DNA of 35,679 bases from Sandarakinorhabdus oryzae. GTDB lineage: Bacteria > Pseudomonadota > Alphaproteobacteria > Sphingomonadales > Sphingomonadaceae. The notes beneath the pieces were generated by a model that was not told the DNA's origin, made no database searches, and worked only from the letters and a program-made list of their open reading frames with translations. Of this stretch, positions 9,865 to 27,392 are shown piece by piece (within the stretch, counting starts at the first letter, position 1; each line of letters opens with the position of its first letter). The translations under genes were made by a program, and so were the position numbers. The stretch spans positions 1 to 35,679 of the forward strand of contig NZ_WNJP01000012.1 in the NCBI RefSeq assembly GCF_009733735.1, in the 5' to 3' direction.

Positions 9865-10058
9865 GGTTCCCCCACTGTCGCCAGACCTGAGAGCTTTGAC
9901 CGGAACAGATCCCGGCTTACCCCTTCGGTGGGGTGCAGTTGCCTGCACCCGCTTTCCAGAGTGTCGCTGATACGCCGGCGCGGTCCTTGGGCCTGAGAGA
10001 TTCCGGGGGCGGCTTGCTCCTTCGGCGGTGACCGGTTGCCCTGCCACACTCTCCCGCG
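9865..10058 (-). promoter_or_regulatory. Tandem glycine riboswitch upstream of gcvT
   Basis: On the minus strand two glycine aptamers follow each other. Aptamer 1 (about 10055-9964) has GGGAGAGTGTGGCAGG, the core CACCG...GAAGGAGCAA, and AATCTCTCAGGCCCAAGGAC. Aptamer 2 (about 9963-9868) has ACACTCTGGAAAGC, CACCGAAGGGGTAAGCC, and AAAGCTCTCAGGT followed by GACAGTGGGGGAA. These are the standard conserved blocks of the family, in the right order, and the downstream operon is glycine cleavage. Glycine binding normally turns such operons on. The expression platform must lie in the short stretch between 9865 and the gcvT ATG; I see no clear U-rich terminator there, so control of translation start is the more likely mechanism. 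Confidence 0.95.
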
Positions 10059-10183
10059 CGCGGCGCCGGAGTTGCCCCCGGCGACCCCTGCCGATTGGGC
10101 GAAGCGGGCGCCTGAGTCAACTGCCCGAATGACCACCAGCGCGGCCAGCGCAACCCTGCCGCGCCGGCGCCGTAACTGCAGCC

Positions 10184-24483: not shown

Positions 24484-24795
24484 ATGCGCGTGATGATGGC
24501 TCTGGTTGTTGCAGCGACTCTGGCGGTGCCGGCTGTGGCGGCGGAACGCGGTTATGAACAATCGCAGGTGCGGGTGCAGATCGCCGATCTCGATCTCGCC
24601 ACCGCCGCTGGCCAGCGCGCGCTCGAAAAGCGGATGTCGGTGGCGATGGTGCGCCTGTGCGGTATGCCGGTGATGTTCAGCCGCGATGAGCTCGCCGATC
24701 TCGATGCCTGCCGCGCCGACGCGATGAAGGCCGCTGCGCCGCAGCTCGAAGCCGCCCGCGCACAGCGTGCAGTTGCCGTCGCCTCAACCCGCTGA
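24484..24795 (+). CDS. UrcA family protein, exported
   Basis: This 103-residue protein has a signal peptide ending in AVAA (cleavage near residue 20) and a mature part with the UrcA pattern VQIADLDLATAAGQRALEKR followed by a pair of cysteines (Cys59 and Cys76), which probably form a disulfide in the periplasm. UrcA proteins occur mainly in Sphingomonadales and Caulobacterales, often in many copies; their role is unknown. GGGAGG lies six bases before the ATG. A terminator follows the stop by about 24 bases. Confidence 0.9.
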   Translation: MRVMMALVVAATLAVPAVAAERGYEQSQVRVQIADLDLATAAGQRALEKRMSVAMVRLCGMPVMFSRDELADLDACRADAMKAAAPQLEAARAQRAVAVASTR

Positions 24796-24819
24796 CACCA
24801 GGTTTCTGGTCTGAACCCG

Positions 24820-24849
24820 AAAGGGCCGGTGCCATGCGCCGGCCCTTTT
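24820..24849 (+). terminator. Intrinsic terminator of the urcA-like gene
   Basis: A stem pairs AAAGGGCCGG with CCGGCCCTTT (plus a G-T and two inner GC pairs, loop CAT) and ends in TTTT. The run CCCTTTTGCTTTGGGG after it is the same as after the terminator at 4562-4597. Confidence 0.9.
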
Positions 24850-24855
24850 GCTTTG

Positions 24856-25120
24856 GGGTCTGAGCTCAATAAATCCAACTGCCGGCATGGGCTGGAGAAG
24901 CAACATGGCTAGGCGCGGGCGCGCAGGCGGGGCTTCGCCCCCCGGCAAGCGACCGCAACGACGCCATATTGTCTCTCCAGCCCACCCGGAGGGCGAAGCC
25001 ATGAGGGCCGATGGCGCGCTCGCTCGATTGCCGGGTAGCGCTGCTACCCGGCTGCACTCGCTCACTCCCATCGGCCCTCATGGCTTCGTGACGGCGTTTG
25101 GACTCATTGAGTTCAGACCC
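24856..25120. repeat. Large branched inverted-repeat element (three-way junction)
   Basis: These 265 bases fold on paper into an outer stem with two long side arms. The outer arms are 24856-24878 and 25098-25120 (20 of 23 pairs identical, one more a wobble). Arm A pairs 24888-24909 with 24963-24984 (19 of 22) and carries a tip hairpin at 24929-24941. Arm B pairs 24994-25014 with 25068-25088 (21 of 21, perfect) and is capped by a 10-base-pair hairpin at 25030-25052. No codon pattern of a gene fits it. It could be a structured RNA, an extragenic palindromic repeat, or a non-autonomous mobile element. It sits between the urcA terminator and pccA. Confidence 0.8.
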
Positions 25121-25385
25121 AGAGGGAAGCCGGCGCCGCCCTGCGGGGGAGAGCGGGCAGCGCCGGCCGGGAACGATGCGCTGGCGGCCGGGGTGGGGGA
25201 AGAGGCCAGCCGCGCATGTCGAAACTGCATCGGGGGGCAGATTTCGATGTCACCGTGATGCCCCAGACGGCCACGTGTGGGAAACAAAGCCTCTTTGTCG
25301 CGGTCATCGCCAAAATCGATATGTTGCATGGCCGCGCCGCACCGCTATGGAGCAGGCAGGACCTTGTCACCGAAAGGCGTGCGTC
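25121..25385 (+). other. pccA leader region
   Basis: No gene is supported here. A further hairpin at 25129-25167 pairs GCCGGCGC-c-GCCC with GGGC-a-GCGCCGGC. The frame of pccA stays open through this region back to about 25098, but that part has no resemblance to carboxylases and overlaps the repeat, so it is untranslated leader. A promoter for pccA must lie in or before this stretch; TTGTCG near 25298 with GATATG 17 bases later is only a weak candidate. Confidence 0.5.
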
Positions 25386-27392
25386 TTGTTCAAGAAGATC
25401 CTGATTGCCAACCGTGGTGAAATTGCCTGCCGGGTCATCCGCACGGCGCGGGCGATGGGCATCAAGACGGTGGCGGTCTATTCCGATGCCGACGCCCAGG
25501 CGCTGCATGTGCGCGAAGCGGATGAAGCGGTGCACATCGGCCCATCCCCGGCGGCCGAATCCTATCTGATTGCAGACAAGATCATCGCCGCCTGCAAGGC
25601 CACCGGCGCCGAAGCCGTTCACCCCGGTTATGGCTTCCTGTCGGAACGCGCCAGCTTCGTCGAAGCGCTGTCAGCCGCCGGCATCGCCTTCATCGGGCCG
25701 CCAGCCGGCGCCATCGCCGCCATGGGCGACAAGATCGAATCCAAGCGCCGCGCCAAGGCCGCCGGGGTGAGCGTGGTTCCCGGCTTCGTCGGTGAGATCA
25801 ACGGCACCGATCATGCGGTCGAGATTGCCAATGGCATCGGCTACCCGGTGATGATGAAGGCCAGTGCCGGTGGTGGCGGCAAAGGCATGCGCCTGGCCTG
25901 GAGCGAAGCCGACGTGCGCGAAGGCTTTGACTCGGTCCGCCGCGAAGCGCTCGCCAGCTTCGGCGATGACCGCGTGTTCATCGAGAAGTTCGTCGAACAG
26001 CCGCGCCACATCGAGATCCAGCTGATTGGCGATCAACAGGGCAATATCATCTATTTGAACGAACGCGACTGCTCGATCCAGCGCCGCCACCAGAAGGTCG
26101 TCGAAGAAGCTCCCTCCCCGTTCGTCACGCCGGAAATGCGCAAGGCAATGGGCGAACAGGCCGTCGCCCTGGCGCGCAACGTCGGCTATTTCAGCGCCGG
26201 CACGGTGGAGTTCATCGCCGGCGCCGATCGCAGCTTCTACTTCCTCGAAATGAACACCCGCCTGCAGGTGGAGCATCCGGTCACCGAGTGCATCACCGGC
26301 CTCGACCTGGTCGAGCTGATGATCCGCGTCGCTGCCGGCGAGCAACTGCCCTTCAGCCAGGCCGATGTGCAGCTGAATGGCCACGCCATCGAAACCCGCA
26401 TCTATGCCGAAGACCCGTATCGCGGCTTCCTGCCCTCCATCGGCCGCCTGTCGCGCTGCCAGCCGCCGGAAGCCGGGCACGACGAGGAAGGCCGCCTGGT
26501 CCGCATCGATACCGGCGTCGTCGAAGGCGCTGAAATCTCGATGTTCTATGATCCGATGATCGCCAAGCTGATCACCTGGGGCCCGACCCGCGATGCCGCC
26601 ATCGCCGCGCAAGGCCAGGCGCTGGATCGCTATCTGATCAAGGGCATCAATCACAACATCGATTTCCTGTCGGCGATCATGCAGCACGGCCGATTCCAGG
26701 CCGGCAGCAACGTCACCACCGGCTTCATCGCCGAGGAATATCCCGACGGCTTCCACGGCGCCCCGGTCGCGCCCGAAACCCGTGATGCGCTGATCGCCGC
26801 TGCCGCCATCATCCAGGCCGAGACGGTTGCGCGCGAGCAGCTGATCGACGGGCAATTGTCGGGCGACGGCGCCATCTATGGCATCAACTGGGTCGTCGAA
26901 CTCGATGGCGAGCAGGTGCCGGTGGAAGTGACCGGCGAGGCCGGCAGCCATGAAGTGCTGATCGATGGCCGTGATCTGGTCGTGCAATCGGGCTGGCGCG
27001 TGGGAGACAGCCTGTTCACCGGCACCATCAACGCCGCACCCGTTGCCATCGGCGTCGCCCGGAAGGGCAGCTTCACGCTGCTCACCACCCGCGGCGCCAG
27101 CCACAAGGCCCGCGTGCTCACCCCGCGCGCCGCCGAACTCGCCCGCTTCATGATCCCCAAGGTGCCGCCCGACCTGAGCAAATATCTGCTCTGCCCGATG
27201 CCGGGCCTGGTCGTCTCCATCGCGGTGGCCGAAGGCGACAAGGTCGAAGCCGGCCAGCCGCTGGCGACGGTGGAAGCCATGAAGATGGAGAACATCCTGC
27301 GCGCCGAAAAGGCCGGCACGGTGGCGAAACTGCTGGCCAAGCCGGGGGATAGCCTGGCCGTGGATGCGGTAATCATGGAATTCGAAGGCTGA
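25386..27392 (+). CDS. pccA: Propionyl-CoA carboxylase alpha subunit (biotin carboxylase and carrier)
   Basis: This 668-residue protein has the usual PccA layout: biotin carboxylase domain (1-445) starting FKKILIANRGEIACRVI, ATP-grasp glycine-rich loop KASAGGGGKGM, catalytic EMNTRLQVEHPVTE, a BT linker domain, and a C-terminal biotinyl domain with EAMKMEN, where Lys633 carries biotin. It carboxylates biotin with bicarbonate and ATP and hands the group to PccB. I start at TTG 25386, with AAAGG about eight bases upstream; this gives the standard N-terminus. Methylcrotonyl- or acetyl-CoA carboxylase alternatives are less likely given the partner pccB. Confidence 0.95.
   Translation: MFKKILIANRGEIACRVIRTARAMGIKTVAVYSDADAQALHVREADEAVHIGPSPAAESYLIADKIIAACKATGAEAVHPGYGFLSERASFVEALSAAGIAFIGPPAGAIAAMGDKIESKRRAKAAGVSVVPGFVGEINGTDHAVEIANGIGYPVMMKASAGGGGKGMRLAWSEADVREGFDSVRREALASFGDDRVFIEKFVEQPRHIEIQLIGDQQGNIIYLNERDCSIQRRHQKVVEEAPSPFVTPEMRKAMGEQAVALARNVGYFSAGTVEFIAGADRSFYFLEMNTRLQVEHPVTECITGLDLVELMIRVAAGEQLPFSQADVQLNGHAIETRIYAEDPYRGFLPSIGRLSRCQPPEAGHDEEGRLVRIDTGVVEGAEISMFYDPMIAKLITWGPTRDAAIAAQGQALDRYLIKGINHNIDFLSAIMQHGRFQAGSNVTTGFIAEEYPDGFHGAPVAPETRDALIAAAAIIQAETVAREQLIDGQLSGDGAIYGINWVVELDGEQVPVEVTGEAGSHEVLIDGRDLVVQSGWRVGDSLFTGTINAAPVAIGVARKGSFTLLTTRGASHKARVLTPRAAELARFMIPKVPPDLSKYLLCPMPGLVVSIAVAEGDKVEAGQPLATVEAMKMENILRAEKAGTVAKLLAKPGDSLAVDAVIMEFEG

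Follow-up and report, generated by a model that had tools for sequence, protein, structure and literature searches.

Within the 35,679-nucleotide stretch of Sandarakinorhabdus oryzae DNA that we analysed (hereinafter the window; contig 24 among the 431 of a 3.27 Mb draft genome), a 265 bp palindromic element occupies the interval between a gene for a protein of the UrcA family (TIGR04433; no Pfam match) and pccA, whose product is a biotin carboxylase with PCC_BT and biotin domains. The carboxyl transferase gene pccB and a DUF2269 gene are found upstream, and behind the UrcA gene stand an inverted repeat and a T run (24820-24852), which a simple scan did not call as a terminator. Elsewhere in the window, a pair of glycine riboswitch aptamers (RF00504; 56 and 45.5 bits) lies side by side on the minus strand at 9865-10066, apparently as a tandem riboswitch. 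The element has no transposase gene, and thus does not itself code for the DDE transposase of an IS5-family insertion sequence; the long reading frames across it are overlapping chance frames. Its parts are the following:

24856..25120, plus strand: whole element, GGG...CCC, arm A first (from the fold against shuffles, boundaries in 30 full-length copies, and flanks)
24856..24887, plus strand: outer stem, 5' side, pairing with 25089-25120; its opening bases, GGGTCTGAGCTCAAT, form a terminal-repeat-like end
24888..24984, plus strand: arm A, with a lower stem free in sequence and a conserved upper part
24910..24917, plus strand: conserved motif TAGGCGCG, 5' side of the arm A internal loop (module alignment)
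24955..24965, plus strand: conserved motif GCAACGACGCC, 3' side of the arm A internal loop (module alignment)
24985..24993, plus strand: linker hairpin CCC GGA GGG, three pairs
24994..25088, minus strand: arm B, the same hairpin module as arm A, inverted
25089..25120, plus strand: outer stem, 3' side, with the second terminal-repeat-like end, TGAGTTCAGACCC

Folding predictions for both strands lie far beyond those of shuffled sequences: as RNA the plus strand reaches -170.9 kcal/mol (mean of 200 shuffles -110.2, sd 4.9; z -12.4; 0 shuffles as good) and the minus strand -183.3 kcal/mol (z -13.0; none of 200 shuffles as good). The inverted repeats are where an earlier note on this DNA had put them, namely in the outer stem, in arm B (24994-25014 with 25068-25088, 21/21) and in arm A (positions 33-129 in element numbering; 24888-24909 with 24963-24984, 86% of 22). 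That note had joined them in a three-way junction; the strongly folded, branched form stands, but the linker hairpin (24985-24993) sits between arms A and B, so that four helices meet at the junction. Across 27 aligned copies the three linker pairs are invariant, setting one gap aside, and 26/31 outer-stem pairs vary on both sides.

The possibility, raised in the same note, that the palindrome has no other copy anywhere was dispelled by searches of the host genome and its relatives. A blastn search of the host genome gave 18 matches, among which are several self-matches on the reverse strand or fragments of one copy; taken together with a covariance model and the fetched stretches, it places 13 two-armed copies on contigs 24, 323, 377, 32, 401, 113, 412, 406, 426, 21, 346, 399 and 410, and by our reading a further 192 bp form on contig 124 (L258) has one arm. 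Matches were recovered in 18 of 98 genomes (own included), a few of them over 26-63 bases only. From 45 loci, 30 were retained as full-length with at least 14/16 end pairs, a rule that favours well-paired outer stems; left out were L010 (the same copy as L012), L011 (a partial match), L014-L018 (reverse-strand self-matches), and L025, L033, L034, L035, L040, L041, L043 and L044 (cut, degenerate or chance matches). The 27-copy alignment (A3) additionally omits L005 and L012, which have arm A insertions, and L032, in which most of arm B is missing. The inserts in L005 (contig 401) and L012 (contig 21) measure 13 and 36 bases, the larger being palindromic. The copies are thus multiple, dispersed and devoid of coding capacity: an ATG-led frame in arm A is not conserved, as judged by eye. 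A coding reading of arm A was likewise dropped by eye, given frame-breaking lengths, for example in L043. The window copy (L001) and L002 are 98% alike with different flanks, and are products of a recent duplication. The window copy had no match in plasmid and phage collections, and three of four queries from other subfamilies had none among plasmids; the fourth matched, at 69.6% over 62% of its length, a plasmid of Agrobacterium sp. MA01. This plasmid stretch (L302, 1501-1698) is a distant relative of one subfamily and is intergenic, with no listed feature beneath it.

Comparison with relatives also recovered sites that lack the element. At the window site it is absent in 9/9 aligned relatives, in which the order of the UrcA gene and pccA is the same and the DNA between them is variable. 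The suggestion that the element splits pccA from pccB is to be refined: these nine element-free relatives already have an UrcA-type gene and pccA in this order, and nothing was newly parted. In several relatives (L091-L096 and L098) the UrcA-pccA interval holds a stretch missing from the window, which may be a short reverse-strand gene. Of 18 copies for which an empty site was sought, the fetched loci included a relative spanning the site for 10 and none for 8. At the L003 site the element is absent in 22/22 relatives aligning across it (a 23rd matched only partly), and relatives with 93-98% flank identity also have no element where L019, L021, L038 and L039 sit. The relatives' junctions are often CTGA or TCAG, a few bases off the filled site, so that no clean TA duplication can be read directly. 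At the L003, L007, L019 and L038 junctions, we observed that the first G of several copies completes a TAG stop codon for the gene upstream of it; in relatives that gene ends with TGA or another stop.

The copies differ in their letters far more than in their pairing. In the 27 aligned copies, 96.9% of 2746 stem cells hold standard pairs, against 76.7% after shuffling and 35.6-42.1% when the partner is slid by 1-3 columns. The covarying changes that the earlier note had proposed to look for are abundant: both partners have changed in 77/102 pairs (47.0 in shuffles), involving 521 cells (137.2 in shuffles), and 0/500 shuffles reach the observed figure for pairing, two-sided pairs or cells, with the proviso that shuffling ignores relatedness and that copies were accepted only with well-paired ends, a selection that did not extend to arms A and B. 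Over the 1992 cells of the outer stem and lower arms we counted 467 compensated pairs, 20 G-T, 25 A-C and 17 other mismatches.

Close pairs of copies give a view of how such changes arise. Among four copies that are 97-98% alike in one genome of another genus, two outer-stem pairs (14/256 and 19/251) differ on both sides in concert, and at least two stem positions differ on one side only; the concordant changes hint, in this small sample, that one arm is copied from the other. L001 and L002 differ by five one-sided changes and no two-sided one, and hence such rewriting is not constant. At four of these five positions L001 agrees with L003, and three of the four fall within 18 bases, in arm A and the linker. 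This points to an exchange of sequence between copies as a simple source of the arm A mismatches. The earlier contrast between a perfect arm B, recent or selected, and an imperfect arm A therefore holds in part, as the arm A mismatches can be explained by such exchange. Elsewhere, within one genus, L194 and L198 agree at 87/99 columns of arm A, 70/102 of arm B and 20/35 of the outer stem, and L190 and L198 at 29/33 of the outer stem, 81/101 of arm A and 92/100 of arm B. From these alignments, ends and arms seem to have been exchanged between elements, either direction being conceivable.

The two arms are versions of one module in opposite orientation. Arm A aligns better with the reversed arm B in 44/53 copies (1 tie, 8 the other way), and in both an internal loop below the apical hairpin is bordered by AGG.GCG on one side and by C.ACG on the other. 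Short one-armed forms of 175-182 bp with the same ends are present in one genome of another genus (L259, L260 and L261). A covariance model of arm A recovered 15/199 genomes of the family (11/96 genera) and 11/385 genomes of the class, 9 of the latter outside the family. The element's length is nearly constant across these lineages: 20/22 loci outside the genus have an outer palindrome of 17-20 of 20 and a total of 252-279 bp (68 control windows gave 12-15), and among 11 loci outside the family, from a slightly wider search, 6, each in another genome, have the whole architecture in 264-276 bp. The other five are L300, which has the architecture plus an insertion, L299, a lone hairpin of 132 bp, and three loci that are cut or unclear (L293, L294 and L301). 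From lineage to lineage the ends of the element differ. A plain sequence search reaches near subfamilies only and the structure-aware model finds the architecture in other alphaproteobacterial families, so such elements may be overlooked.

The flanks and ends connect the element to a known family of transposases. Over 50 copies the bases before the element are Y in 48, T in 38 and A in 45, and those after it T in 47, A in 25 and R in 41, giving Y-TA...TA-R; in 20 of the 50 the A at -1 is fixed, and T at +1 favoured, by the boundary rule itself; of the 30 that remain, 25 have A at -1. Those 20 comprise 13 loci outside the genus and 7 further loci; the 22 loci outside the genus were reduced to these 13 since L169 and L177 are without an outer palindrome and 7 repeat the copies of other loci. 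Exact TA is present on both sides in 17/50 copies, 15 of them Y-TA...TA-R; in the window copy these positions hold TG and AG. An IS200/IS605-like insertion after T without duplication had been a candidate and was dropped once the 50 copies gave Y-TA...TA-R on both sides. YTAR is the duplication motif of IS5, as stated in an excerpt of PMC10359306. A 19-base end pattern retrieved 26/199 family genomes (a reversed control gave zero among the matches listed). In 30 loci drawn from these matches, the partner end lies at 268-271 bp in 8, at 834-1232 bp in 6 and at 204, 244, 249 or 305 bp in 4, with none within reach in 12. All six long loci have Y-TA...TA-R flanks and IS5-type reading frames, and of four proteins from three of them two match PF13340 and two PF01609; six insertion sequences of related genomes thus have terminal inverted repeats in common with the short element. 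The ends of the window's own subfamily (GGGTCTGAACTCA and similar) match the IS ends only partly. A search for PF13340 (IS5 orfA) found none in the host genome, and within the genus it is present in 10/24 genomes and absent from 14/24; ends of this kind border 2 (L271 and L278) of 24 orfA loci in the genus.

Taken together, we put the probability at about three in four that the element is a non-autonomous MITE of the IS5 type, moved in trans by an IS5-type transposase, and as such a new and unusually built one. The mobile palindromic element that the earlier note had offered as one option is borne out by the further copies, the element-free sites, the Y-TA...TA-R flanks and the terminal repeats common with IS5-family insertion sequences. 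We infer a mechanism in which the ends of the outer stem would serve as terminal inverted repeats for an IS5-family transposase, insertion would occur at Y-TA-R sites with duplication of TA, and the enzyme would be supplied in trans by insertion sequences of the IS5 family that have matching ends. The element's body is an inverted pair of one module, whose lower stems stay complementary as their sequence drifts and whose upper parts keep their motifs. The hairpins most likely matter as DNA: the palindrome could extrude during replication or repair, one arm would occasionally be rewritten from the other, and copies that no longer fold would drop from the mobile pool. The conserved upper parts of the arms may be a protein-recognised repeat, another of the options in that note. 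Counting against the MITE are the window copy's want of a TA pair and the presence of TA on both sides in no more than 17 of 50 copies, the absence of a helper from the host genome and of a clean TA duplication at the empty sites, the small share of orfA loci with such ends and the partial likeness of the ends in the window's own subfamily.

The principal alternative in functional terms is a repeated structured RNA, small or cis-acting, in which pairing would be kept so that a transcript or a single-stranded hairpin folds. The very strong covariation is what such an RNA would show, and when the arms are read in the module's own direction, 25 G-T types exceed 11 A-C types (sign test p 0.03, uncorrected and with copies that are related and not independent), an excess that a pure duplex-DNA constraint does not predict. 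In the columns of A3 this excess is seen in both arms. Each hairpin may therefore also matter as a single strand, DNA or RNA. On the element's plus strand, however, there are 24 distinct G-T against 29 A-C types, and in 47 copies one strand folds about as well as the other (-190.4 and -191.3 kcal/mol). As G-T and A-C are equally rare in the outer and lower stems, the whole element is unlikely to be kept as a one-strand RNA, and that part of the earlier proposal finds no support. Against Rfam the element yielded sub-threshold matches (24700-25300) and nothing that reached a family's cut-off, the two glycine riboswitches elsewhere in the window being the only hits of that kind, and a simple scan, blind to other promoter types, found no sigma-70-like or terminator-like site in 24700-25400. 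Given also the many lineage-specific insertion sites, we regard a structured RNA as improbable.

A slightly poorer candidate is a giant element of the REP/REPIN type moved by a Y1 (RAYT) transposase, for which the IS5-like ends would be a coincidence or a secondary capture. Its two inverted hairpin modules have a REPIN-like layout, and some copies open arm A with CGTCAT, recalling the CGTC-tagged REPs that, in the portion of PMC3733652 cited here, are frequent in alphaproteobacteria and have no dedicated transposase. Against this, the flanks and ends fit IS5, and a search for Y1_Tnp (PF01797) gave 0 matches in the host genome, with the control positive in 5/14 known genomes. The adjacency of several copies to gene ends would also suit a bidirectional transcription terminator or an mRNA 3'-end protector, maintained by the host and spread by copying. 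Long GC-rich hairpins can indeed stop or stabilise transcripts. Nevertheless, the scan that found no terminator-like site in 24700-25400 (and that also missed the inverted repeat after the UrcA gene), the lineage specificity of the copies, which a host function would not call for, and the two-armed inverted design and IS-shared ends, which it leaves unexplained, make this quite implausible. A one-off local palindrome without biological meaning has nothing in its favour but the want of a plasmid or phage match to the window copy, and is practically refuted by the copies in the host genome and its relatives.

Returning to the IS5-type MITE, a wider and more tentative proposal, which we consider less likely than not, though far from negligible, and which falls well short of the MITE reading itself, is that of selfish DNA forming a class-wide family whose members are united by shape and not by sequence. 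An inverted hairpin pair would couple to different IS5-type ends in different lineages, its stems would be rewritten in concert as one arm is copied from the other, and only the upper motifs, recognised when folded, would be under selection. The copies form a natural record of how long palindromes evolve, in which paired changes abound and mismatched intermediates are few. For an element known by its shape there is now a concrete candidate helper, the IS5 family. As the element's ends and targets are known, one can test directly whether it is mobilised, whether it needs pairing and whether its arms are rewritten. A literature search by title and abstract start found no description of this element.

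RIME, Bru-RS, ERIC, Correia and Rickettsia palindromic elements are short intergenic palindromic repeats, several of which are MITE-like. To our knowledge none has two mirrored arms within an IS5-type outer stem, a distinction made on architecture. With REPs and REPINs, including the CGTC-tagged REPs as characterized in part of PMC3733652, the element shares its palindromic and intergenic nature, its inverted pairs and its frequency in alphaproteobacteria; unlike them, it has modules of ~96 bases with an internal loop, its pair is enclosed by IS5-type ends, and its host genome has no Y1 enzyme. The IS427 group of the IS5 family, for which an extract of PMC3281130 gives a characteristic size, two frames and mostly 2-bp duplications, resembles it in ends of the kind TAGGGTCAGGACCC / TAGGCCGTGAACTCAT, in a putative TA duplication in YTAR and in occurring in the same bacterial family, but differs in being 0.8-1.2 kb long and coding for a transposase, the group name resting here on size, two frames and Pfam. 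Also close in kind are the IS-derived MITEs, as outlined in the quoted part of a review (PMC10969869) that also names the Rickettsia palindromic elements (RPE): like the element, they are short, non-coding and intergenic, have ends in common with a full IS and can fold as single strands; their short target duplication is one that the element would probably share. The element stands apart from them in its inverted pair of modules, its near-constant length and a shape that outlasts its sequence across families.
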